A DNA stretch of 64,000 nucleotides from Subtercola boreus (GTDB lineage Bacteria; Actinomycetota; Actinomycetes; Actinomycetales; Microbacteriaceae), in NCBI RefSeq assembly GCF_003399625.1, contig NZ_NBXA01000022.1, positions 124,001 through 188,000 of the forward strand, in the 5' to 3' direction. Both the position numbers and the translations under genes were made by a program. This document shows positions 52,993-64,000 of the stretch, piece after piece (position 1 is the first letter of the stretch; every line of letters starts with the position of its first letter). Under the pieces are notes generated by a model, which worked only from the letters and a program-made list of their open reading frames with translations, made no database searches and was not told the DNA's origin.

Positions 52993-53158
52993 CTACTCTC
53001 CGAGCGCCTGCTCGAGCCGGTCGAGCTTCGCCGTGAGCTCCCCCGTGTATCCGGGTCGGATGTCGGCCTTCAGAACCAGAGACACGCGCGATCCGAAGGC
53101 GCCGACGGCCTCGGTGGCCCGTTTGACGACCTCGAACACCTCGTCCCAGTCACCCTCG
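52993..53158 (-). pseudogene. 3' fragment of the host thiamine-binding (MTH1187/DUF77) gene, cut by element insertion
   Basis: The fragment encodes DWDEVFEVVKRATEAVGAF and ends LTAKLDRLEQALGE with a stop, the C-terminal half of a roughly 100-residue MTH1187-type protein. It joins the other half (63944 to the window edge) exactly through CCCTCG: ...ATC GAG GG | T GAC TGG. Its own start is lost; the frame running back into the element (to 53235) gives no family sequence. The intact element copy at 63605-63904 has about three quarters identical bases. Confidence 0.88.
53153..53158. other. attL core (left end of the integrative element)
   Basis: CCCTCG at the junction between host gene sequence and element DNA. 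The same six bases occur at 63938-63943, and the host gene is restored by joining across them. The crossover dinucleotide of the serine recombinase should lie inside. Confidence 0.8.
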
Positions 53159-53236
53159 TGAGTGAGTTTTGGGTATTGGCGCGAGCAGCACGCCCGCACT
53201 GGCCCTCTCCTCCTCTGCAAACACGAGGAGTGCACT

Positions 53237-54754
53237 GTGAGAATTATCGGTTATGTTCGCCTGTCCAGGGCGTCACGCGAGGAGTCAACGTCGATCGTCC
53301 GACAGCGAGAGCTGATCGCGCAGACTTGCACGCTGCGCGACGACTTCGAGTTGATCGACTTGGTCGAGGACGTCGACGTCTCCGCCACGCGGAGCAGGCT
53401 CGACCGGCCCGGACTAAATAAGGTCCGAGAGATGGTCCGCAGAGGTGACGCCGATGCCGTGATGGTCTGGCGCCTCGACCGCCTGGTCCGGTCCGTCGTC
53501 GATGTTGGGGTCCTCCTCGACGAGGGTCTTCAGATCATTTCCGCAACCGAGAACCTCGACACGACCTCGGCAATGGGCCGGGCGATGATCGAGATTCTTC
53601 AGGTCTTCGCGAGCATGGAAGCCAAGACCATCGGCGTCCGCGTCGCAGCCTCCCAGGAGCGCCTTCGCAACAACGGCCGCTGGCCTGGAGGCGTCGTTCC
53701 GTACGGCTATCGATCCGTACCCCACCCGACCGGCGCAGGTCGCGCGCTGGAGCCTGAGCCGTTCGAGGCGCGCATCGTCCGCCGCATGGCCGACGAGGTT
53801 CTCGCCGGGTCTCCTGTGTTCGCTGTGACAGCTCGCCTGAACGCGGACGGAGTTCCGACTCGACGGCCGATCAAGAACGACGACGGGACGGAGTCTCGCC
53901 GCGACTGGTCGCCGACAAGCGTGCAGCGCATTCTACGATCCGACGCGGTCCTCGGCAGGGTTCGCCTCGGCGGCATTCACAAGCGAAGTGGCCGTAAGAC
54001 GACCACGACCAAGAAGGCCGAGCCGCTGCGAGACGAGCTAGGAATCCCGGTCTCAGTGTGGCCCCCACTTCTCTCTGTAGAGGAGGTGGAACGGCTCCGA
54101 GAGCTAACCGATTGGAAGCCGATCCCCGGCCGATCAGAAGCAACTCGCCAGGGGCGCAGACAGCGGCGGACTCGACTTCTCTCCGGACTCCTCTCTTGCC
54201 CCACCTGCGGGCATGAGCTGGTCGCGAAGAGTCGCCGGTCGACAACGGGAGAGGATATTTACACCTGCAACGCAAAGTCTCGCGGGCTCGTCTGCGAGTG
54301 CGGCGTCGCCGTCGAGTGCTACCGGATCGAAGCCGAAGTCGAACGTCAGTTCCTCGGCGCTTACGGCCGCCTGCGCCTAGTCGAGCCGTCGACCATAATT
54401 CGGGAGGTCGCGGGTCTTGCGGCGGTCCAGGAAGCGATCCGCGACACGACAGACCGGCTCCGAGATCCCGACGCCGACGTCCCTACGCTCGTCGACCGAC
54501 TGACGGATCTACGCCGTGAACGGGAGCGGCTGGAGGCGGTGCCCGAGCGCCCAGTCGTCGTCATGGTCGACGCCGGTATGACCGTCGAGGAAGCCTGGGC
54601 GGATCGGGACGTCACTTTGCGGCGCGAGATCATCGAAGCTTCCGGCGTGTCGATCACGCTCGCGCACGCGGCGCAGCGGGGACGCTGGGACCCGGCGCGC
54701 GTCTCAGTCGAGTTCCCGATCGGTTACCTCACGGAGCGCGACTTCGCAAGTTAG
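53237..54754 (+). CDS. Large serine recombinase (integrase)
   Basis: A 505-residue site-specific recombinase. GTG 53237 has a strong site (GAGGAG six bases earlier). The N-terminal resolvase domain carries the catalytic serine in GYVRLSRASREESTS and the arginines in VMVWRLDRLVRS with FASMEAKTIGVRV. The recombinase domain follows (NNGRWPGGVVPYGYRSVP), then a zinc-ribbon with LLSCPTCGHELV and YTCNAKSRGLVCECGVAVEC, and a coiled coil (about 420-460). It begins 79 bases inside attL and must catalyse the integration at CCCTCG. No directionality factor of known family is obvious. Confidence 0.95.
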   Translation: MRIIGYVRLSRASREESTSIVRQRELIAQTCTLRDDFELIDLVEDVDVSATRSRLDRPGLNKVREMVRRGDADAVMVWRLDRLVRSVVDVGVLLDEGLQIISATENLDTTSAMGRAMIEILQVFASMEAKTIGVRVAASQERLRNNGRWPGGVVPYGYRSVPHPTGAGRALEPEPFEARIVRRMADEVLAGSPVFAVTARLNADGVPTRRPIKNDDGTESRRDWSPTSVQRILRSDAVLGRVRLGGIHKRSGRKTTTTKKAEPLRDELGIPVSVWPPLLSVEEVERLRELTDWKPIPGRSEATRQGRRQRRTRLLSGLLSCPTCGHELVAKSRRSTTGEDIYTCNAKSRGLVCECGVAVECYRIEAEVERQFLGAYGRLRLVEPSTIIREVAGLAAVQEAIRDTTDRLRDPDADVPTLVDRLTDLRRERERLEAVPERPVVVMVDAGMTVEEAWADRDVTLRREIIEASGVSITLAHAAQRGRWDPARVSVEFPIGYLTERDFAS

Positions 54755-55082
54755 GCGGCCGCACGCCTGAGGAGGCATAACCGAGCCACGTGGCCCTCTC
54801 CTCTAATGAGCCCCCCTGTTCTCTGTTGCAGCGGCTTGGCATGCGAGGTGAGTTGGCCTGTTGGCGCGCCCATGCCTGGCGGCCTTCGGCGTCCTCTCCC
54901 GACGGCCCCTTCTCCTTCCGCACGCGGTCATTAGGCCGTTCGCGTCGCGGCCCCTGGCGGGGAACCTGGAGCCTCGTCCGCGTGCTGGCGGCGGGGCTCC
55001 AGCCTGCCCGCCGCCTCGCCCGCCGAGTGCGGGCGCTTTTTCAATCGACCTTTGCCGGTCGCCCTCTAACGAAGGAAGAACT
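54755..55082. other. Non-coding stretch after the recombinase
   Basis: A 328-base gap of very high GC. No convincing frame; open frames here (for example 54790-55230) lack coding character. A factor-independent terminator is present at its end (55018-55041). A weak hairpin (AGGCG/CGCCT) directly follows the recombinase stop. Confidence 0.4.
55018..55041 (+). terminator. Intrinsic terminator before the zinc-finger gene
   Basis: Stem GCCCGC/GCGGGC with loop CGAGT followed by GC and five T residues. It would end transcripts from the recombinase side 41 bases before the next start codon. Confidence 0.7.
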
Positions 55083-55337
55083 ATGTCCTCGTTCATCCAA
55101 CACTGCAACTACTGTGATCGGCCGTTTCAGGCCCAGCGAAGCACCGCACGATTCTGTTCCGGCGCTCACCGAAACGACTACCGGCGCCGAGCGACTGACG
55201 CCTGGCGAGAGGAGGCGGTCGCCGTCCTGATCGATCAGCAGCTCGCCGCGATCGCCGTCAACGCCGAGGCGCTGGGTGCCGTGATCCGCCGCGCCGATGA
55301 GCTTTTCGCGCCAAGTCGCCGTCGAAGCGCTGCTTGA
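55083..55337 (+). CDS. Small zinc-finger protein of the element
   Basis: An 84-residue protein with a good ribosome site (AAGGAAG). The N-terminal CNYCDRPFQAQRSTARFCSG segment has a Cys-x2-Cys and a later Cys with a following His (AHRNDY), a one-finger fold found in many actinophage and plasmid regulators. The rest is helical. It may bind DNA, as a regulator or an excision factor. The position just after the recombinase fits such a role; this is inference. Confidence 0.7.
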   Translation: MSSFIQHCNYCDRPFQAQRSTARFCSGAHRNDYRRRATDAWREEAVAVLIDQQLAAIAVNAEALGAVIRRADELFAPSRRRSAA

Positions 55338-55689
55338 TCCGGGCGCCCGGTAGGGCCGCTCGCCGCTGCGCCGAGGATGGGAGCCTCCGCCGAGCGCAGA
55401 GGCCGGACGCCGGACACCGGTGTGACGGAATGACGGTTCTTACGTCACTTCTCTTCTTTCTCTCTAGAGTTCTCTCTCTTAAGGAAAGAAGCAGAAGTGA
55501 CGTACCTTTCGTCATTCCGTCACATCCGGCCCTCTCAGCCAGGCTTCGGCCATATATCTGGTCGTTTCCTCGGCGCCTTCCCTCTCTAGCGCGAGCACCT
55601 CGCCGCCGTGACACCCATCCGGCGTACGGCCTGAAATTCACCCCGACCCCGCCAGCCGCGAGAGCGGCACAAACAGAAAGAGAAACCGA
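55338..55689. other. Gene-free segment holding the large inverted repeat
   Basis: A 352-base interval between two same-strand genes. Its middle is the 104-base palindrome described separately. The rest is GC-rich without a plausible frame; a weak purine-rich ribosome site (AAAGAGAAA) leads into the ATG at 55690. A promoter for the downstream operon should lie between 55525 and 55680, but no clear -10/-35 pair is evident (TATATCT at about 55553 is the best -10 candidate). Confidence 0.45.
55417..55529. repeat. Large interrupted inverted repeat with TGACG/CGTCA words
   Basis: The left arm starts at 55421 with TGTGACGGAATGACG; the right arm ends at 55524 with CGTCATTCCGTCACA. Stems: 15 bp, a 5x5 internal loop, 12 bp (TACGTCACTTCT/AGAAGTGACGTA), one bulged base, and 8 bp (CTTCTTTC/GAAAGAAG), plus an outer CCGG pair. 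The loop is about 23 bases of T/C-rich, AT-richer sequence (CTCTAGAG). The word TGACG or its complement occurs six times. Such repeats suit iterons, operators or a double-strand origin. Confidence 0.85.
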
Positions 55690-56268
55690 ATGACCAACAA
55701 CATTGAAGCTCGCCCCGACGGTCTGCCGCCCGCGTTCCTGATCGACGCGGTCCCCGGCGCCGTCGAGGCCCTCACCCATGCGCGACGCACGGAAGCGGGC
55801 GGCGAGGTACTCCGCGCCGCGACGAACGAGGCAATGCGGGCGCGTCGTGGCAAAGTTCAGACCCTTGGAACACCGCCCGACACGTTCCCCGGACCGGCGC
55901 GTGGCGTGAGCACGGCTGAATTCGACGCGCTCCAGGCTGCCTACGCTGACGCTCAGGCCGCCGAAAGCGCATACAACCGACGCAGCTCCGCAGCGTGGCG
56001 ATCCTTCGCAACCCTGATCTCAGAGGGCAAGTCGGAGCCGCGCGCCCGAGAGGCCGTCTCAGCGTTCGCACAAGACAGGCACGCGGATGCCGAGGCCGCC
56101 CTCGCAGCTCTTCAGGAGGCGCTCCGAGAACGAGAGGAAGCCGCCTCGTTCCTCCGCACTCCGCGAGCACAGAGGCCGCTGGAGGACCGGGCGCACGTCC
56201 TGCGCCTCGTCCAGGATCAGATCGACGCGTTTTCGCCGGTGAGCTTCGCGACCGAGGTCGCAGCGTGA
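55690..56268 (+). CDS. Element protein of unknown function, helical
   Basis: A 192-residue protein, mostly alpha-helical, with coiled-coil stretches at about residues 75-150 (Ala/Glu/Arg-rich). No recognised family. Its stop overlaps the next start (GTGA), and a four-gene run follows, so it heads an operon downstream of the large inverted repeat. Confidence 0.6.
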   Translation: MTNNIEARPDGLPPAFLIDAVPGAVEALTHARRTEAGGEVLRAATNEAMRARRGKVQTLGTPPDTFPGPARGVSTAEFDALQAAYADAQAAESAYNRRSSAAWRSFATLISEGKSEPRAREAVSAFAQDRHADAEAALAALQEALREREEAASFLRTPRAQRPLEDRAHVLRLVQDQIDAFSPVSFATEVAA

Positions 56269-56513
56269 GCACCGCCGACACAGAGGCGATCGTCCGCGCC
56301 GTCCAGGCCGCGCGCCCGCTGCCGGAGACGGCCGAGGAGCTGGACGCTGGGGCGCTTCGCCAGTTGACCTGGCAGGCCACCCGCGCGGGCGTCACCCCCG
56401 CTGAGTATCTCGCCCAGGTTCACGTCGACCGCGCGGCCACCGCGGCGCAAGAGACCTTCGTCGCCGACGTTCTCTCGTCGGTCCGCGCGGCGCGAGCGGG
56501 CGGTCTGCGATGA
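56265..56513 (+). CDS. Small element protein of unknown function
   Basis: An 82-residue protein starting at GTG 56265, overlapping the preceding stop by four bases. It contains TWQATRAGVTPAEYLAQVHV, a helix-turn-helix-like pattern, but no family is recognised. Its stop overlaps the next ATG (ATGA). Confidence 0.55.
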   Translation: MSTADTEAIVRAVQAARPLPETAEELDAGALRQLTWQATRAGVTPAEYLAQVHVDRAATAAQETFVADVLSSVRAARAGGLR

Positions 56514-56692
56514 CCAACTCTTTCCAGCCCGCGTCCGACGCCAAACCGCCCCAGCTCGACCTCACCCTGGCGCTTCGCCCGGGCCACGGCGGCGACGATC
56601 CCGTCCGGTTCGACGCGAACGCAATCGCGCTGGCTGCGCGCACCGCGCCGCCGTCTCAGGTCGTCCGCGCCCGGATCATCCTTGATGACTAG
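56510..56692 (+). CDS. Small element protein of unknown function
   Basis: A 60-residue protein with ATGA overlap to the preceding gene. No membrane span, Cys pair or known motif. The tail (QVVRARIILDD) resembles a beta strand. Coding status rests on the coupling and on the conserved operon pattern. An ATG at 56685 overlaps its stop (ATGACTAG) and might start a further short peptide. Confidence 0.45.
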   Translation: MTNSFQPASDAKPPQLDLTLALRPGHGGDDPVRFDANAIALAARTAPPSQVVRARIILDD

Positions 56693-56781
56693 CTACATCT
56701 CGCCGGGGCAGACGCCCGAGCTGTCCCGGCACCCCCTATCCGCGCCCGCCGTGGCGCAGTGGCTCAGGAGGCCGCTCGACT

Positions 56782-57246
56782 ATGACAAAGACCGAAACTC
56801 CCTCCCCGCTCGCAGACCTCGCTACCGCGGTCCGATCGCGTGTCGAGCATCGCATGACAACCCTCGGCCGGTTCGCCGAGGCCGAAGCGACCAGGACCCC
56901 TGCGAAGCTCCGCGCCCCGCACGCCCGCCAGACTTGGCTAGCCCTATCACCGGAGAGCCGCCTGGAACACCTGCGCTCGACCGTGATCGCAGACGAAACC
57001 GACATCCACCTCGCCCGCGCCGAAGGACGCGCACACGCGGCGGACGAACGAGAGCGGCAGCGCCAGGCCGTCGCCGACGAAGGTCGCCAACGCGAGGCCC
57101 GAGGCGTAGCGGTCCACAGCCGAGTCCGCTTCTGGGTATCGTGTGCCCGCGGCTGCGGCCGGATGGTATCGGCGCCTGATCCTCGGCCGGTTCTGCGATT
57201 CTGCACTGCTCAGTCGACAGGCGGGTGCATGCCACGCGCTGACTGA
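56782..57246 (+). CDS. Element protein with a possible C-terminal zinc site
   Basis: A 154-residue, Arg/Ala-rich protein. AGGAGG about ten bases before ATG 56782 supports the start. The C-terminal part (VSCARGCGRMVSA then RFCTAQSTGGC) has four Cys in a spacing that could bind zinc. The central part is helical. Function unknown. Confidence 0.55.
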   Translation: MTKTETPSPLADLATAVRSRVEHRMTTLGRFAEAEATRTPAKLRAPHARQTWLALSPESRLEHLRSTVIADETDIHLARAEGRAHAADERERQRQAVADEGRQREARGVAVHSRVRFWVSCARGCGRMVSAPDPRPVLRFCTAQSTGGCMPRAD

Positions 57247-57250
57247 ACGC

Positions 57251-57748
57251 TCAGCCCGCTTGCTTGCCCGGGACGGGCTCGGGGTTGCCCCAGGCTGCGT
57301 TACCGAGAACCTTCTGTGCATTCATTACCTTGACGACGTCGCGCCGAGTGAGCACCGCCAAGTTGACTGCATCAGCGTCGGCGGGGTCAGATCCGCAGAG
57401 GACCGCGACAGTCTGCATGTTGGCCGCGATGCTCTCGTATGTGCCCCGATAGTTGTCGAGTGGAGTCGCATTCGCAAACTGACTAGCGGTGAAACGGACA
57501 TAGTCGCAATTCGCGGGTGCGTAGGTCTCCACCTAAGCGAACAGAGCCCCGAGGGCACCGACGAGGCTATCGGTCGCCGCCTTATCGTCCGGTTGGTCGG
57601 GCGCCGATGTAGCCGGGGGGGGGGCAGGCTTCGTCGTCACCGGCGCGACTGGCGACCCGGTGTTGATCGTTATGCAACCTGACGCTGATAGCGCGATGAG
57701 ACAGGCAAACGTTACTGCGGCACCAACCCTGAACTTCCCCACCCGCAT
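57251..57748 (-). pseudogene. Element lipoprotein gene split by an in-frame amber codon, with a C10 tract
   Basis: From ATG 57748 a 71-residue frame encodes a signal peptide with lipobox (SASGC), a Pro/Thr-rich linker and a short domain, then a TAG at 57533-57535. The next codon is GTG and the same frame stays open for 93 codons (METYAPANCDYVRFTASQFA onward, with two Cys). Together they make a lipoprotein of about 165 residues, so the TAG is likely a nonsense mutation or a read-through site. A run of ten C in the linker (plus-strand G run at about 57616-57625) is an obvious slippage site. Confidence 0.6.
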
Positions 57749-57789
57749 AGGCTACAGGGACGGTGCCTAGCGCCGTCGGTACTGCACGA

Positions 57790-58506
57790 CTAAAGCCTTG
57801 CTCGGCGCCCTCGGATTCGCGGTTTCCGAGTCTTGAGCCCCTCATTTAGTTGTTCCAATTCATCCTCGATCCCGGACGCCGCGCTGGCAAGCTTCCTGAT
57901 CTGGCTCTCGTTCCGGTTGCGGATATTCCAGTTCTTATTCTCGTAGTCCTGGGGAAGCAGAGCCTGACTCCACTGATCCAGGCTGAGCTGGAACGAATCT
58001 GAATACCGTACAGGGACACGCTTCCTCCAGGGGTTCCCAGGTGACCGCCGCAATATTCGGGGATCCTCGTAAGAGACAGTGACGCTGTAGTGCCGTGGTA
58101 GCGACTTATTGCCCATGTAGTCAGGGCCGCGGTCCAGATGCCAGCTGATACTTCGGGATGGAGCAAGCAGCTGAAGCTCATTTGCCGGATCGAAGATGCG
58201 ATTCAGCACCGCTGCGCTATCCGGCCGGGTGGACTCGAAAGGGCGATCCACGCTGAGCCGCACGTTCTGCGCTGCGGAAGTAGAGATGTTACTGACGGTG
58301 ATATTCAGCAGGTTCGATCGAAACGTCAGATCTGCAATCACGAACGGTCGCCCGCGAGCCTCGGATTCCCGGATGAATGCTCGCAGCTGGATCAGCGCAG
58401 CGATAACCGTGATCGTCGTGAGGAGAAAACCTAGGAAGCCCCACCAAGCAGACCACTCAGCCGGAAGCGGCCAACCTTCTATGTTCCAGAAACCCGCGAT
58501 GCGCAC
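57790..58506 (-). CDS. Element membrane protein of unknown function
   Basis: A 238-residue protein. A membrane span of about 20 residues follows a short Trp-rich start (EGWPLPAEWSAWWGFLGFLL), and the remainder is a soluble beta-rich domain with polar and Arg-rich end. No family recognised. Base composition is lower in GC than the host genes, consistent with transfer. In the same orientation as the lipoprotein and the small gene at 58653. Confidence 0.6.
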   Translation of the reverse strand: MRIAGFWNIEGWPLPAEWSAWWGFLGFLLTTITVIAALIQLRAFIRESEARGRPFVIADLTFRSNLLNITVSNISTSAAQNVRLSVDRPFESTRPDSAAVLNRIFDPANELQLLAPSRSISWHLDRGPDYMGNKSLPRHYSVTVSYEDPRILRRSPGNPWRKRVPVRYSDSFQLSLDQWSQALLPQDYENKNWNIRNRNESQIRKLASAASGIEDELEQLNEGLKTRKPRIRGRRARL

Positions 58507-58652
58507 GCTGCCACGCTATCGGACGCCTTCCGCGCCCGAGGCGCCGACACCTCTACCCCCTGGGGGGTGACTCCCCCTCCCCTCTCTCGTGCAAGCCCGA
58601 AGCGGCATAGCGTCTCACTCTCGCTACCGGCAGACGCCTGGTTTTTCCGTGC

Positions 58653-58829
58653 TCAGCTAGGGCGCCGTCGGCCGTTCGCTGCGATCAACAAGAACGCCAG
58701 GCCGCAGGCCCAGATCACAGCCCCGACGACCTTCGGGAACACGGCGTCACCCACCAGGAAATAAACGACTCCCGCCAATAGCAGCACAGCACCGACAACG
58801 AGCGCGGTCGTTCGCTGCCTTCTCGTCAT
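58653..58829 (-). CDS. Small two-span membrane protein
   Basis: A 58-residue open frame from ATG 58829. It begins MTRRQRTTALVVGAVLLLAG and continues with FLVGDAVFPKVVGAVIWACG and FLLIAANGRRRPS: two hydrophobic helices with basic ends. The arrangement fits the positive-inside rule (N and C tails basic). The protein is short, but the pattern is unlikely by chance. It could be a holin-like or toxin-like peptide or a small stress protein. Confidence 0.55.
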   Translation of the reverse strand: MTRRQRTTALVVGAVLLLAGVVYFLVGDAVFPKVVGAVIWACGLAFLLIAANGRRRPS

Positions 58830-58878
58830 ATCGCGAATCTACCATCGCGACTAATCCCGCATCCGAAAGGTTAACCGC

Positions 58879-59241
58879 ATGACCCCGACAAGCCTTCCAG
58901 ACGACTGGCTCCTCCCGCCCGACTGGACGGACTCCGCGCGCGACGTCTTCCTCGGCGGCATCGACGAGCGCCCCGACCTAGCCGGGGCCGAACTGGCCTC
59001 ACTAGAGCATGCCGCAGCGCTCACATCCTCCGCTGACAGGCTCGACGGAGTCGCCCGCGACGCTGGCATTGTTGCAACCGGCTCAACCGGCCAGGTCGTC
59101 CTCCACCCGGCCGTTACCGAGGCCCGACTCGCGCGCGCATCCGCATCGACAATTCTCGCTCGGCTCGTCACTCCGACCGCCGGACCTCAGACGGCATCGC
59201 AGCGTGGACGCGCCGCCGCTCGCGCCCGGTACTCGCGTTGA
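58879..59241 (+). CDS. P27-like phage terminase small subunit
   Basis: A 120-residue protein. The middle segment SLEHAAALTSSADRLDGVAR and then VATGSTGQVVLHPAVTEARL match the P27/TerS pattern (a helical core, a G-S-x-G-Q turn, then H-P-x3-E-x-R), and the tail GRAAARARYSR is typical of actinophage TerS. In complete phages TerS recognises pac DNA and feeds the large subunit; no TerL gene follows. A satellite may use its own TerS to redirect a helper's packaging. The call is motif-based. Confidence 0.62.
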   Translation: MTPTSLPDDWLLPPDWTDSARDVFLGGIDERPDLAGAELASLEHAAALTSSADRLDGVARDAGIVATGSTGQVVLHPAVTEARLARASASTILARLVTPTAGPQTASQRGRAAARARYSR

Positions 59242-59504
59242 GACGTCCCGACGTCGGAGCCGCCGCTCGACGAGAGCCCCGCCCCGTCGAAGCGATCACG
59301 CTCGACCCGGCGTACGTCACCGCCGTCGGCGTTCTTCGCGCAGCGGCCGACGCGGTCCGCGACTCCCCCGAGTTACAGGAGTCGTTTACACGCGCCCGCC
59401 AGGAAGGTGCGGCGGCACTCGCCGCGCATCACGCGCTCGCCGGGCAGGTGTTACGAGCCACTGTGACAGCGGCAGCGAAAGCGACGCCGCCTCCGCCATT
59501 CTGA
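59238..59504 (+). CDS. Small element protein coupled to the terminase-like gene
   Basis: An 88-residue frame starting with TTG that overlaps the preceding stop (TTGA). The central part (LDPAYVTAVGVLRAAADAVR, ELQESFTRARQEGAAALA) is helical. No known family; position next to a TerS-like gene suggests a packaging or head-related accessory role, which is speculative. Confidence 0.5.
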   Translation: MRRPDVGAAARREPRPVEAITLDPAYVTAVGVLRAAADAVRDSPELQESFTRARQEGAAALAAHHALAGQVLRATVTAAAKATPPPPF

Positions 59505-59725
59505 CGCGCCGCTCAGACCCGGTCCACCGGCCGCTTCATTTTGTCTGGCGGCCGAACTGCCCCCGACTGGGCGCTCTCCGTCCTGTGCGGAGGTTGCGGC
59601 CCTCAGCGGGCCACCCAGGTCACCGAAGACTCGCCCTAACAAGCCTTGCGCCGCCGGTTGCCTGAGATTTCGGCGAAAGGGACGGAACAAACTCCGCCGG
59701 TACGTTGGCTTGGCCTGTATATCGG

Positions 59726-60532
59726 TCAAGCATGCTTGAGGAGGTAATTGACGAAAGCTGACGAAGCTACCAGAAAGTACACAGCGAGAGGCTCGTCTGC
59801 GTCTTCGGGCCGGACGAGGGCATGTCGGATCCCGGCCGCGTCGCTGGTGTAGCCGTAGAGCTTTGTCCAGCCGTCAATCAAAGCACCGTGGGCGGGAACC
59901 CCCTTGCCCTGTAGCTTTCGTAGGCCGCTACTCAGAGTGTTGTCACCGGTGAGCTCGGCGACCGTGGCTTCTACTGCGCTGATCGATTCAGACACGACCT
60001 TTGCATACTGGGGCTTGTCGCGGCTGCCCAACAACTCCACGGCGCGGCGCAGGTGGGTTCGCGCATTCGATCCCGCCGATGCGAGCGCGTCCTCGATTGC
60101 CGCCACCTCTGCAGGCGCGCTTACGGGAACGACTTGATCGTTCAGAATTCGGTAGCCGACGACGTAGCGCTCGAAGTCATCCGTGACCCAGGCGATATAG
60201 GCGGATGAGACGCCCGAACTGTCGCCCGCGTTTTGAGCGATGAACTCGACCACATCTAGAACAGATGCCCACGTTCCGGTCTGATGACGAGCCTTCAGGG
60301 CCGCGGTAAGTCGATGTATGGTGAATTCGTCTAGCGGTTGTTCAAGCAGACTCGACCACACATGTCTTCTAAACCGCTCGGCGTATTCTCCGTACGAGCC
60401 CATCTGCTCGAGCTTCGAAATGACCCCGAGGTAGGAATTCCATAGCGCAGTCCTGGTCGCGTCGTCCAGACTCTCGACTTGGACTATGGTGCGAGGTGGC
60501 GTGACTCCCGCACGTTCAGAGAATGTTGACAT
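59726..60532 (-). CDS. AbiJ_NTD4-type abortive-infection protein
   Basis: A 268-residue protein. The first 35 residues (TFSERAGVTPPRTIVQVESL then LDDATRTALWNSYLGVI) fit the AbiJ N-terminal domain 4 signature (FSER-x-G ... IQ-x-ESMDDALRNSLWN). The C-terminal part (LYGYTSDAAGIRHALVRPED then VYFLVASSAFVNYLL) fits the HEPN-like C-terminal domain of the same group. I do not see a canonical R-x4-6-H motif, so nuclease activity is uncertain. Such proteins stop phage growth by shutting down the infected cell. It is divergent from the nuclease gene. Confidence 0.8.
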   Translation of the reverse strand: MSTFSERAGVTPPRTIVQVESLDDATRTALWNSYLGVISKLEQMGSYGEYAERFRRHVWSSLLEQPLDEFTIHRLTAALKARHQTGTWASVLDVVEFIAQNAGDSSGVSSAYIAWVTDDFERYVVGYRILNDQVVPVSAPAEVAAIEDALASAGSNARTHLRRAVELLGSRDKPQYAKVVSESISAVEATVAELTGDNTLSSGLRKLQGKGVPAHGALIDGWTKLYGYTSDAAGIRHALVRPEDADEPLAVYFLVASSAFVNYLLKHA

Positions 60533-60652
60533 GGGCAGATGTTATCCGGCAACGGGTCACGTGCAGCCCGGACGCGCCCTAGCTCAATGGTTCGATAGAT
60601 CGCCCCCTCCACGCCCCAGGACCCGGCCCGCCGACTGCCTGCCGCGACGGCC

Positions 60653-61366
60653 GTGAACATCGACGGAGCGCTCCTCCGTGACATAGAGCGCGGCGGCGAC
60701 TGGCACCTCGACCCGCGCATCCCCGCGACCGAGCAGGCCGGGCCGGAGATCTACTCGAACAACGACCTAGACCGCGGTCACCAGGTGCGCCGCCGCGACC
60801 CCGTCTGGGGCGACCTGGCGACCGCGACCGCCGCGAACCAGGCCACCTTCGTCTACACGAACTGCGCGCCCCAGGCTGGCGAATTCAACCAGTCCGCCGA
60901 GCTATGGGGCGGCCTAGAGAATCACGTCCTGGAATACACCAGCGTGTACGAGCAGAAGATCAGCGTTTTCACCGGGCCGGTCCTGGCGTCAGACGACCCG
61001 GCCTATCGCGGGATCCAGATTCGGCGCGTGTTCTGGAAGATCGCAGCCTGGACCGAGAGCGACAACGCCGGAGCGTCCCAGCTCGCCTCGGCGGGCTTCT
61101 TCCTAGACCAGCCGCCCGAGCTGGACGAGATCGACCTCCGCACCGCCCGCGCGATCGCAGCCGGTAGCCCGCCGCCCCTCGGACCGTTCAAGACGTTCCA
61201 ATTCTCGGTCCAGCAAATCAGCGACCTGACCGGCCTTCAGCTCGGCGATCTCGTCGCCGCGGACCGTAGCCGGTCCGATCGAGCGCCCGCCCCGTACCTG
61301 CCCGCGAGCTTCAATCCCTCGCCGACGTCGTCCTCGGATAACTGGACCGCCAGGCCCTCCAGTTAG
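60653..61366 (+). CDS. DNA/RNA non-specific endonuclease, 5'-truncated
   Basis: A 237-residue NUC1-type nuclease with the catalytic DRGH motif (NNDLDRGHQVRRRDPVWG) and the magnesium-ligand Asn region in YTNCAPQAGEFNQSAELWGG. RGIQIRRVFWKIAAW is also typical. Starting at GTG 60653 the protein lacks the N-terminal beta-strand segment of its relatives, yet the frame stays homologous upstream (DPARRLPAATAV) until a TAG at 60596-60598. It has no signal peptide, so if active it would act inside the cell. Probably truncated or 5'-mutated. Confidence 0.72.
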   Translation: MNIDGALLRDIERGGDWHLDPRIPATEQAGPEIYSNNDLDRGHQVRRRDPVWGDLATATAANQATFVYTNCAPQAGEFNQSAELWGGLENHVLEYTSVYEQKISVFTGPVLASDDPAYRGIQIRRVFWKIAAWTESDNAGASQLASAGFFLDQPPELDEIDLRTARAIAAGSPPPLGPFKTFQFSVQQISDLTGLQLGDLVAADRSRSDRAPAPYLPASFNPSPTSSSDNWTARPSS

Positions 61367-61375
61367 GATGCGCTT

Positions 61376-61969
61376 ATGCGAAACCCGTCTGTCGTTCTCT
61401 TGGCTATGGTCGCAACAACCCTCACTCTGGCGGGATGCGCCTCGGCCGGAGCCGTGCCGTCTGCCGCAGACGCCGCCGGTAGCCTCTCCGGTTCTCGGTC
61501 AGCAACGAAGTCGCCGACACCGACGCCCACCGCGCAACCATGGGCCGAAGTCACGGACGGCACCTGGACCCCCATCAGTCGAGCAGTTGCGCTCGGCCAA
61601 CCCGCCTCCAGCAACCCATTCGCGTACAGCGTCACCGTTACCGGTGTGCCGACACTGACTATCCTCGGCGACCGGGTGACGATGACCTCCCCGGTCTCCA
61701 TCACTCACACGCAAGACGACCTCACGCGTAACACGGTGGCCTATGCCACGCACCCGATATGGACGCCGGGGAACCTGAATTACCCGGAGCACGACGAGGC
61801 CTACGGCACGCACCCCGACATGAAATGCGCGGCAGAGAAGATCGCGGTCGGCGAGACAACGACCTGCACAGTCGCATTTACCGCCCCACCCCGCGAGATC
61901 CAGAATTCCTACTGGCAGTTCGTCGGCGTCGACTCCGCCGCCTGGCCGAGTCAGCCAGGGCGAAACTAG
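61376..61969 (+). CDS. Element lipoprotein of unknown function
   Basis: A 197-residue protein with a signal peptide and lipobox (TLAGC at about residue 21). The mature protein starts with an Ala/Ser/Thr/Pro-rich linker, then a beta-rich domain with two Cys (DMKCAAEKIAVGETTTCTVA) that could form a disulfide, resembling DUF4352-like extracellular domains. It starts nine bases after the nuclease stop. A surface change on lysogenised cells is a possible role. Confidence 0.68.
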   Translation: MRNPSVVLLAMVATTLTLAGCASAGAVPSAADAAGSLSGSRSATKSPTPTPTAQPWAEVTDGTWTPISRAVALGQPASSNPFAYSVTVTGVPTLTILGDRVTMTSPVSITHTQDDLTRNTVAYATHPIWTPGNLNYPEHDEAYGTHPDMKCAAEKIAVGETTTCTVAFTAPPREIQNSYWQFVGVDSAAWPSQPGRN

Positions 61970-62148
61970 GCTCACTGACGGTGAGCGGCGCCGCCGCCTG
62001 CGGCGTAATCGCCTCGACCGCCTCGCCCGCCCGGATCCCCGCGGCATTGCGGCGCTGTCCGGGTAGGTCCTGTCCCAATCTGCGGAGATCGTTCCCTCGT
62101 CACCCGGCCACTGGACGAGACGACCGGCTTCCGCACTACCGGGGCCCT

Positions 62149-62334
62149 ATGAAGATCGAGTGCCTGATCGACGGGTGCGACGCCGACCCGTCCGAGGAGT
62201 TGAGGCTCGACGAGGGCGGCCTCGGCGTCGCCTATGCGATCTGTAGGGCGCACGCCGAGGAGGTCCGCAGCGGCGCCATGTTCGCCCAGGGGGCCGACCC
62301 GTCCCGAGGGTTACTTGGCCTCCGCGACGTGTAA
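62149..62334 (+). CDS. Small Cys/His-containing element protein
   Basis: A 61-residue protein with IECLIDGCDADPSEELRL and YAICRAHAEEVRSG: four possible metal ligands (Cys-x4-Cys and Cys-x2-His). It resembles the small zinc-binding proteins of actinophages. No ribosome site stands out. Confidence 0.5.
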   Translation: MKIECLIDGCDADPSEELRLDEGGLGVAYAICRAHAEEVRSGAMFAQGADPSRGLLGLRDV

Positions 62335-62339
62335 ACGGC

Positions 62340-62564
62340 TTAGGCGTTCGCGGCGACGTACTCGGCGATCTGTTCCTCAGTGCGCGGGACCCATTGCGAG
62401 CTCGACCTGTCGCGGAAGACCGTCCAGGTCCCGCCCGCCGTCCGGCCGATCAGCGATCCGTCGACGCGGAGATGCTGGCTCCGTCGTTCCGGCCCGCCGT
62501 GCACGACACCGGCCGCTTGGCGCAGCTCCTCGAATGTTGCTGTGTACTCTGCCGCTGCTGTCAT
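62340..62564 (-). CDS. Small element protein, converging on the previous gene
   Basis: A 74-residue soluble protein. It contains VDGSLIGRTAGGTWTVFRDR, which may form a beta hairpin, and a helical end. No family recognised. It is transcribed toward the gene at 62149 with a five-base gap. Confidence 0.45.
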   Translation of the reverse strand: MTAAAEYTATFEELRQAAGVVHGGPERRSQHLRVDGSLIGRTAGGTWTVFRDRSSSQWVPRTEEQIAEYVAANA

Positions 62565-62681
62565 GGTTCCTTCTCTCGCTCCGGCACCGTGCCGAGCGGT
62601 TCGAGGTTAATTGAGACCGGCGCTATAAGTCAAACAATGCTCAACAACCGTAAGACATCTCACGCATCAGATCGGGCCATG

Positions 62682-63128
62682 CTAGCTCGGATCCCACTCC
62701 AGGCCCGCGAACGAGTCCCCGATGACCTGAACGGCCGGGTCGCCGATCTTCACATATGAATCCGAGGGGCTCAGGTCCTGTTGGAGACGTCGCTCAGAGG
62801 TCCGAAGTGTCTCCTGGCGATCCTCGCCAGTACCAAACGCAAAACCAAGCGCGGATATCGAGGTCCCTCGGCTCTTTATGGTGCGGAAAGTCCGACCGAC
62901 AGCCACCTTCGGCTTGACGTCGACGATCTTGACGAAAGTCTTCGCCAGCTCGACCGAGTCGAGAATCTCGCCCGTATCCGGGTCCTTGATGTCCGCACCT
63001 CTTGGGCTCAGAATCGCAAAGCGCATTCCGATTCGGACACCCTGTAAAGAGCCGCGATTGATCACAAGATCCTGCTCTGTCAGTATCTGAGCGACCTTTC
63101 CTTCGATCCGATCCTCGGTGTCAGTCAT
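62682..63128 (-). CDS. Element protein with an OB-like domain
   Basis: A 148-residue protein starting at ATG 63128, with GAGGAAGGA upstream and an eight-base overlap with the preceding gene. EGKVAQILTEQDLVINRGSL and VRIGMRFAILSPRG resemble the OB-like ends of FlgT-type domains, suggesting a nucleic-acid- or peptide-binding role. No catalytic residues seen. It is the third gene in the minus-strand run behind the replacement gene, so it may be under the captured host promoter. Confidence 0.55.
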   Translation of the reverse strand: MTDTEDRIEGKVAQILTEQDLVINRGSLQGVRIGMRFAILSPRGADIKDPDTGEILDSVELAKTFVKIVDVKPKVAVGRTFRTIKSRGTSISALGFAFGTGEDRQETLRTSERRLQQDLSPSDSYVKIGDPAVQVIGDSFAGLEWDPS

Positions 63129-63585
63129 TGCGTCCTTCCTCAATTGCTCGCAGTACCGCCGGGTGTAGGTTCGACCAGTCCTCGACGCTTTCGACGAGAT
63201 CCTCTTCGATGAAGCTGAGAGCGGTGCTCAACTCGCCGAGGGTATCGGCCTTCGCCCGCGCAGCGACCTCGTCGTTTCCGCGCTCGGCCATAAGCCTGGC
63301 GGAATTGATGCGAGTGGAGATCTTTAGAAGGCGCCTGAGCGCGATCTTCACCGCCTCCGGCTCTGCCCGATCTTTTTTCGCGAATGCCCAAATGCTTCCG
63401 CCCTGGAACACAGCCGCTACCAACACGAGAAAGGCGCTCTGAGCGCCTGAGGGAGGCTGGTCACTGCCGCCCGCAAACGCTAGAACCACGGTCGCTCCAA
63501 GACCGACCGCGAGAGAGAAAGATCCTCCTATGGCATATCGGTGCTTGCTCCAGCCCGAAACTACTGTGCCCCATCGATTCCCCAC
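63121..63585 (-). CDS. Element membrane protein with a coiled-coil tail
   Basis: A 154-residue protein starting at GTG 63585, 19 bases after the thiamine-binding copy. Two membrane spans (about residues 17-37 and 47-70) are followed by a Lys/Arg/Glu-rich helix that forms a coiled coil (RRLLKISTRINSARLMAERG). No known family. Its place after the gene copy suggests co-transcription from the host promoter. Confidence 0.6.
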   Translation of the reverse strand: MGNRWGTVVSGWSKHRYAIGGSFSLAVGLGATVVLAFAGGSDQPPSGAQSAFLVLVAAVFQGGSIWAFAKKDRAEPEAVKIALRRLLKISTRINSARLMAERGNDEVAARAKADTLGELSTALSFIEEDLVESVEDWSNLHPAVLRAIEEGRND

Positions 63586-63604
63586 AATCCGATGGTATCG
63601 GGCT

Positions 63605-63904
63605 CTAGCCGAGCGCCTCTTCGAGCCGGTCGAGTTTCGAAGTCAGCTCACCAGAGTAGCCAGGCCGAATGTCGGCCTTCAGCACAAGAGACACGCGCGA
63701 CCCGTACTCTCCGACCGCCTCGGTCGCCCGGCGAATGACGTCGAACACTTCCGCCCACTCTCCCTCGATCGTCGTAAACATCGAGTCGGTGTGGTTCGGG
63801 AGCCCGCTCTCGCGAACGATACGCACTGCGGCAGCGACGGCGTCGTGGACTGACCCGTCGGCGCGGCCGTCGCCGCTCGGCGCCACTGAAAATGCAACTA
63901 GCAT
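63605..63904 (-). CDS. Element-borne complete thiamine-binding protein (MTH1187/DUF77 family)
   Basis: A 99-residue protein of the usual family length. Start ATG 63904 has GGAG six bases upstream; a TTG at 63916 is an alternative. It contains MLVAFSVAPSGDG, the strongly conserved ESGLPNHTDSMFTTIEGEW, and ADIRPGYSGELTSKLDRLEE. The family binds thiamine or its precursors in a ferredoxin-like fold. It is a diverged replacement of the disrupted host gene. The ATG overlaps the stop of the truncated host frame (ATGCTAG), so it may be translated by coupling. Confidence 0.88.
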   Translation of the reverse strand: MLVAFSVAPSGDGRADGSVHDAVAAAVRIVRESGLPNHTDSMFTTIEGEWAEVFDVIRRATEAVGEYGSRVSLVLKADIRPGYSGELTSKLDRLEEALG

Positions 63905-64000
63905 GCCATTCTCCAATGTCCTTCTTCTGCTAACGTGCCCTCGATCGTGGTGAACATCGAGTCGGTGTGGTTCGGCAGGCCCGATTCCCGCACCACGCGC
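63898..64000 (-). pseudogene. 5' part of the host thiamine-binding gene, truncated at attR (start outside window)
   Basis: Reading from the right edge, the host frame gives RVVRESGLPNHTDSMFTTIEG, then crosses the junction and adds TLAEEGHWRMAC from element DNA before the TAG at 63898-63900. It is the missing N-terminal half of the gene at 52993-53158. The transcript should continue into the element. Confidence 0.85.
63938..63943. other. attR core (right end of the element)
   Basis: CCCTCG identical to 53153-53158. From here to the right edge the DNA belongs to the host gene. The related segment in the element's own copy reads CTCCCTCGATCGT, so a similar core exists inside the element (about 63762-63772). 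Confidence 0.8.

Follow-up and report, generated by a model that had tools for sequence, protein, structure and literature searches.

Islands that restore the gene into which they insert often replace its 3' or 5' end. That many genomic islands restore their target in one way or another is reported in the main text of PMC12884075, and the main text of Durrant et al. (PMC10083194) describes diverse large serine recombinases (LSRs) that converge on one conserved site within one gene. A precedent for whole-gene replacement is RME, a recA genomic island of Vibrio cholerae S24, whose excision restores the native gene according to the parts of PMC4405046 consulted. Here we analyse a stretch of 64,000 nucleotides from Subtercola boreus (contig NZ_NBXA01000022.1, positions 124,001 to 188,000, referred to as the window; the contig runs on past its edge), in which an LSR-bearing element lies inside a gene of the PF01910 thiamine-binding protein family. 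We consider it likely, with a probability of roughly 0.88, that the inserted DNA is a site-specific integrative element of the type seen in defence islands, in which the LSR module combines an element attachment site (attP) with a whole replacement gene for the PF01910 target that is cut.

A thiamine-binding protein gene split by an element

The native gene flanks the element as two severed pieces (Table 1), and when the flanks are joined at the CGAGGG that they share on the gene strand, one uninterrupted open reading frame (ORF) of 100 aa results. Exactly three PF01910 matches occur in the whole genome (one for each severed part of the gene and one for the full copy), and the 11 further genomes available for the genus have one match apiece. 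In 10 of these 11 congeners the window flanks align adjacent to each other with a 3-base overlap, the closest being 94-95% identical, and in the remaining one (L057) the left alignment breaks off 9 bases before the join, again with no insert. The single match and the adjoining flanks in congeners show that the halves belong to one gene rather than to paralogues and, consistent with this, the nearest relatives of the joined native gene in our trees are the genes of congeners. Thus, the native gene is truly interrupted, as was proposed in a preliminary description of this DNA that placed the element in an MTH1187-type gene, and an uninterrupted version of it exists in the genus; the alternative weighed there, that the fragments are separate paralogues, does not hold. 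The preliminary description also reported CCCTCG at both joins, which is correct for the window but not as a general core: the core common to all elements found is shorter, and the joins in one Curtobacterium genome (G295) have only GG in common. As judged from the junctions, the crossover falls on the codons GAG GGN (Glu-Gly) within the motif S-M-F-T-x-I/L-E-G-x-W.

The LSR starts 79 bases inside the left end of the element, as had been noted before, and has an N-terminal resolvase domain with the nucleophilic serine, followed by the Recombinase and zinc ribbon domains, which is the domain arrangement of large serine recombinases (PF00239, PF07508 and PF13408, all above their cut-offs). It also matches the integrase family phrog_95 (8.5e-91). 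Residues Arg8, Ser10, Asp81, Arg82 and Arg85 are present, are invariant across six LSRs, and correspond to the catalytic residues listed for Bxb1 in the main text of PMC12884075. The junctions and the empty sites fit LSR-mediated recombination of a short attP with the chromosomal attachment site (attB), and recombination activity is what we infer for this protein. The complete, diverged copy of the target gene that the preliminary description recognised inside the right end is likewise present and agrees with the protein of the joined native gene at 82 of 99 residues (82.8%). The copy matches PF01910 with an E value of 2.9e-25 (88.5 bits; cut-off 24.9) and TIGR00106 with 42.2 bits, which is under the cut-off of 54.7. 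By sequence it is assigned to the PF01910/MTH1187 thiamine-binding family, and from the family name it is a putative thiamine-binding protein.

In the mechanism that we propose, the most conserved codons of a PF01910 gene (Ser-Met-Phe-Thr-x-Ile-Glu-Gly-x-Trp) would serve as the attB that the LSR recombines with attP, the insertion would cut the native gene at Glu-Gly, and the element would supply a whole replacement gene near the core. The native 5' half would then end in the element as a short leader ORF that overlaps the start of the copy, and the native promoter together with the native 5' half would drive translation of the copy. The LSR, attP and the copy would make up an integration module that is portable and occurs both in temperate Arthrobacter phages and in islands whose cargo is unrelated.

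Table 1 Coordinates of the split gene, the element and its features in the window, and of the second-type insertions at other loci
Feature	Sequence	Positions	Strand	Remarks
Severed 3' half of native PF01910 thiamine-binding protein gene	window	52993-53158	-	left flank of element
Left core copy, CCCTCG	window	53153-53158		codons GAG GGN of gene on opposite strand
Integrated element	window	53159-63943		10.8 kb, 65% GC; absent at site in 11 congeners
LSR (P0001), 505 aa	window	53237-54754	+	Resolvase, Recombinase, Zn_ribbon_recom domains
Terminase small-subunit-like protein, 120 aa (weak)	window	58879-59241	+	phrog_1496, E 2.2e-6; no Pfam match
Candidate anti-phage defence protein	window	59726-60532	-	AbiJ_NTD4 domain; PADLOC PDC-S32, 8.6e-76
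Endonuclease_NS (DNA/RNA non-specific endonuclease) protein	window	60653-61366	+	2.4e-36; first 40 profile positions uncovered
Complete element-borne copy of target gene (P0002), 99 aa	window	63605-63904	-	same orientation as native gene
33-nt leader between core and copy	window	63905-63937	-	truncated native ORF reads through, stops at TAG
Right core copy, CCCTCG	window	63938-63943		common to both joins
Severed 5' half of native gene	window	63938-64000	-	extends past window to ATG at G000:C22:188080 (window-equivalent 64080)
Second-type insertion	L178	11921-15164
Second-type insertion	L179	6203-9456
Second-type insertion	L180	8362-13102
Second-type insertion	L181	9283-13190

Islands, phages and a second element type

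Among 299 genomes sampled from the family we found two other close LSRs, one 68% identical (in Cryobacterium sp. PH31-L1, locus L025) and one 58% identical, and five more at 32-34%; among 66 Curtobacterium genomes the LSR is present in three, including locus L026 (uncultured) and L027 (Curtobacterium luteum NS184). Together with the window and G295 these make five islands. The arrangement is the same in all five bacterial loci found whose LSR has 55% identity or more, namely the 3' half, the LSR, cargo, the full copy and the 5' half, so that in five of five LSR-bearing islands a gene is interrupted and a complete homologue of it lies at one end. Four genomes besides that of the window, all with a full copy, have an LSR of the same clade beside halves of this gene, which is what the preliminary description proposed to look for. 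The insertion is at the same codons in all five, and the LSR has the same orientation relative to the gene, as is expected because the core is non-palindromic. The PF01910 matches in the 66 Curtobacterium genomes are in keeping with this picture: 60 have a single match, three have a copy and both halves, one (G714) has a copy and the 5' half, and two have none. (In G714, no LSR was found in the 10 kb fetched.) In addition, in L041, an uncultivated viral genome (UViG) of which one end was seen, the LSR adjoins the 3' half.

No genes other than the LSR and the copy are common to the window, PH31-L1 and Curtobacterium islands (blastp at 1e-8 with ORFs of at least 60 aa, shadow ORFs of the LSR and the copy being set aside); within Curtobacterium, G295 has several further genes in common with L027 and one small ORF with L026. 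Candidate defence genes differ in the four islands checked with PADLOC (6 window and 10 relative proteins, with G295 left out): PDC-S32 in the window, a PD-T4-6-like kinase in PH31-L1, which may be a generic kinase, TIR-TM in L026, and PDC-M36A in L027. Several interior proteins of the window element have no informative matches.

One could also read the window element as what is left of a prophage or phage satellite that has decayed and is now immobile, with the copy kept only because the native gene is broken, a reading that we regard as rather unlikely. As to the packaging-hijack genes that, along with dependence on a helper phage, would mark a phage satellite, the 10 proteins scanned include one weak terminase small-subunit match and no other structural gene, which would suit such a remnant, as would the fact that no excision factor was identified, albeit no search was aimed at excision factors. 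On the other hand, the LSR is full length with its catalytic residues present, and related islands of similar size with different cargo occur in other genera.

Eleven LSR loci are more distant (L028-L038, with no more than 53% identity in the best segment) and showed no thiamine-binding gene in the fetched stretch; plasmid matches to the LSR were weak, none of them with 80% coverage. At 1e-100 there were no matches in 186 genomes of family f18 or in 10 genomes of the genus of Arthrobacter hankyongi, empty answers that are uninformative. Two loci showed additional recombinase-like sequences: the Cryobacterium element contains a second, truncated serine recombinase (L025, 12416-13096), and in genome G532 a short serine-recombinase-like ORF of 235 aa lies directly downstream of an intact thiamine-binding gene (L184, 7608-8663).

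A close LSR (E 1e-100 or better) was also found in 51 phage records, some of which are duplicate records of one phage. All are Arthrobacter phages; they belong to the temperate cluster AZ (Yangvirus; Elezi, London, Ascela, Iter, Nitro and others), and their LSRs are about 64-68% identical to that of the window. In nine of the 51 records (eight phage names) a thiamine-binding gene lies beside attP, with the neighbouring gene on its other side and about 60 bp from the LSR, and encodes a protein 69.9-71.8% identical to the window copy that is annotated as a putative thiamine-binding protein in one record and as hypothetical in eight. (In the loci read, this is the reverse-strand gene beside attP, at 3001-3321 in L017, L018 and L019 and at 1501-1821 in L175 and L176.) The attP core is GAGGGCG in the copy-bearing phages Ascela, Nitro, Elezi, London and Iter; the same core is found where the copy is missing, in YesChef, Powerpuff, Berrie, Janeemi and the IMG/VR contigs L039, L040, L043 and L044, with a close variant (GGGGGCG) in L046. 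By eye, copy-less phages have a terminator-like inverted repeat in the copy's place; the more distant phage CallinAllBarbz is without this attP. From these sequences we predict that the attB of these phages is the thiamine-binding gene of the host. A pattern search with attP returned four IMG/VR contigs, all in the set already, and of two sequence searches with the copies one returned a UViG already in the set and the other returned none. (Note that MT835505.1, locus L020, deposited as a faecal phage, was dropped, as it resembles a fragment of an actinobacterial chromosome around a native gene.)

A PF01910 search across the order gave a match in 234 of 297 genomes and, besides the genome of the window, four with three matches each (G384, G388, G535 and G545, from two families). 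Each of these four has a 2.9-4.4 kb insertion in the thiamine-binding gene, with a crossover about 12 bp upstream of that used by the LSR elements (between ATGTTCAC and the C that follows). The full copies of this second element type are 98-100% identical although the native halves differ widely, and the truncated ORF comes to an end shortly upstream of the copy, the gap of about 13 nt containing GGAGGG or GAGGG. Its cargo is a DAO-type oxidoreductase, joined in L180 and L181 by a DJ-1/PfpI protein. No recombinase was found in this second type: the LSR clade gives no match inside the insertions (weak matches in L181 lie mostly upstream of the insertion), and there was none among 13 of its ORFs scanned with Pfam. 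A pattern search for its joined ends returned no match. Because a second type of element does the same thing about 12 bp away, these findings suggest that the thiamine-binding gene is a repeatedly used, repairable target.

Origin, expression and role of the copy

Our comparisons of copies and native genes used 110 extracted natives and five joined natives, 115 in all (L111 was removed as an element copy, and natives known by coordinates only were unused); the main tree holds 81 of 130 rows, with the attB columns left out. Joined natives lie closest to the genes of their congeners and copies are nearest to copies of related elements across genera; support values are 97/84 for the window and PH31-L1 copies, 100/100 for the four Curtobacterium copies, and 100/100 for the phage copies. 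The window copy is 88.9% identical to the Cryobacterium element copy and 82.8% identical to its own native counterpart, with starred support in the tree. It is thus highly improbable that the copy was left behind by an earlier integration or arose by local duplication of the native gene; an origin by duplication is rejected on the grouping of copies with copies and, moreover, sits poorly with second-type copies that are near-identical across hosts whose natives are not. What resembles local duplication is found elsewhere, in genome G194 (L191, 10822-11950), where a full thiamine-binding gene is accompanied about 700 bp away by a very similar 3' fragment, an arrangement that looks like either a local duplication or the relic of an element.

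It is possible that the copies stem from one capture or from several. The approximately unbiased (AU) tree test does not reject a tree in which the 11 LSR-linked copies form a single clade (p 0.483) and thus gives no support to independence of the copy lineages. The LSRs of L026 and L027 are 59% identical whereas their copies are 95% identical, and this disagreement between LSR and copy histories in Curtobacterium argues that parts have been exchanged between elements. The ratio of nonsynonymous to synonymous substitution rates (dN/dS) is 0.03-0.07 between island copies, 0.07 for the window copy when compared to the Cryobacterium element copy, and 0.19-0.23 between phage copies; these low values argue that the copy has been kept as a working protein under purifying selection.

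The position of the copy suggests how it may be translated. Its ATG is found at a distance of 32-44 nt from where the GAG codon begins, and the copy has the native orientation in the window and in five of six islands or remnants. In 10 of 10 co-directional cases (five islands or remnants and five phages, integration being assumed for the phages) the truncated native ORF terminates on the start codon of the copy or next to it, the overlap taking the form ATGCTAG in the window, TAATG or TGATG in Curtobacterium, and ATGA in the phages; neither of the other frames does so in the islands. When leaders were shuffled, the overlap arose with P 0.08-0.10 in L026, G295 and G714, which are related. This arrangement suggests that the copy would probably be translated by termination-reinitiation from the native promoter, and expression through that promoter and rescue of host function are what we infer for it.

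Several observations weigh against a repair module of this kind. Shuffled leaders give the overlap with P 0.55-0.69 in the window, L027 and the phages, where it is not improbable because the first codons of the copy hold a stop in that frame, and four of five phages have another frame with a stop 4 nt ahead of the copy. The copy is inverted in the Cryobacterium PH31-L1 element, the sole such island, and there it cannot be coupled to the native 5' ORF, so that coupling of the copy to the native 5' half is not general. The presence and absence of the copy requires three gains or losses on the 24-row LSR tree, and 42 of the 51 phage records are without it. Powerpuff, one of the copy-less phages, makes stable lysogens according to the parts of PMC8758107 consulted, indicating that the copy is not required for lysogeny. 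Finally, 63 of the 297 genomes of the order have no PF01910 match, and the thiamine-binding gene therefore looks dispensable in some lineages.

The abundance of copy-less phages with this LSR, and an inverted copy that cannot use the native promoter in a coupled way, would be expected if the copy were a passenger that brings a benefit of its own and lies near attP by chance. We consider this clearly unlikely, given that the only cargo common to the window, PH31-L1 and Curtobacterium islands is a gene of exactly the target's family, that it lies at the attP edge in six of six islands or remnants and in five of five phage loci read, and that the second element type, with another crossover point, also brings its own copy. 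We thus favour replacement of the cut gene as the role of the copy; the insertion may then be neutral for the host, as the preliminary description inferred.

A further idea, which we hold to be doubtful, is that the replacement gene is a dead-end allele that would restore host function while no longer serving as attB, such that a landed island would block the site for rival islands and AZ-type phages while carrying a defence gene of its own. The strongest departure of copies from natives at the protein level is at codon +5, to the right of the crossover. All 11 LSR-linked copies depart from Asp-Glu after the Trp and have Ala-Glu, Pro-Glu, Asp-Ser or Asp-Ala instead, while Asp-Glu is altered in 13 of 115 natives and in none of the four second-type copies, whose crossover is elsewhere; note that this contrast was chosen after the data were seen. 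An extra proline codon is present at the core in the four Curtobacterium copies and in two of the 110 extracted natives. (In the natives L140 and L145, from genus g85, the extra proline codon is that of the Curtobacterium element copies, and natives of this type are a possible source of that allele.) Two broader signatures were examined and rejected. Total divergence over attB is not raised, the value being reached by matched native pairs in a proportion of 0.55 for the window, 0.77 for PH31-L1, 0.04 for L026, 0.29 for L027 and 0.52 for G295. A sliding-window codon test placed the most unusual stretch at attB in 11 of 11 LSR-linked copies when compared to 10 of 115 natives; silent recoding is nevertheless not indicated, as a codon-usage null reproduces the peak in 0.35-0.81 of simulations (P 0.12-0.77). 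The lack of raised divergence and of silent recoding over attB speaks against a dead-end allele, as does the fact that a single origin would fit all 11 copies.

Comparison with described systems

The phage integrase of RME and XerS-type recombinases are of the tyrosine type. RME, as far as its published description was consulted, resembles the window element in lying inside a conserved gene with a complete divergent copy at one end and an integrase at the other. It differs in that its target is recA, in that it has a phage integrase and a XerS-type recombinase rather than an LSR, and in its size of 33 kb, its 9-bp inverted repeats at the ends, and the occurrence of both insertion orientations. 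By descent, the window element, with its serine recombinase and PF01910 target, does not belong with RME. Target-restoring islands insert without loss of target function, whereas here, since the cut falls in mid-gene, the element brings the gene in full and the native version stays in two pieces. The targets of LSR islands in the main text of PMC10083194 are described as disrupted, unlike the whole-gene replacement seen here. Cluster-AZ phages share the attP core with the window element and have a related LSR, but are full genomes of about 43-44 kb.

The preliminary description knew of no account of this target for a serine recombinase, and our search of open-access main texts likewise found no description of a serine integrase with this target, supplements and subscription journals lying outside that search. 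Neither thiamine nor MTH1187 appears in the main texts of PMC10083194 and PMC12884075, and a term search of the main texts of the AZ-phage papers checked found no mention of thiamine or attP.

A module made up of a serine integrase, attP and a complete replacement gene would turn the interior of a conserved gene into a landing site, and would provide a route for allele swap by an integrase instead of homologous recombination. It would also explain an unannotated gene in some cluster-AZ phages, and it predicts their attB. Because phages with and without the copy have the same attP core, the module should be tractable in laboratory Arthrobacter. Replacement of a whole gene by a divergent copy is already known from RME in recA; what is new, as far as searched, is the target, the serine-integrase version, a portable module that temperate phages have in common with defence islands, and another type of element whose insertion site is almost at these codons.

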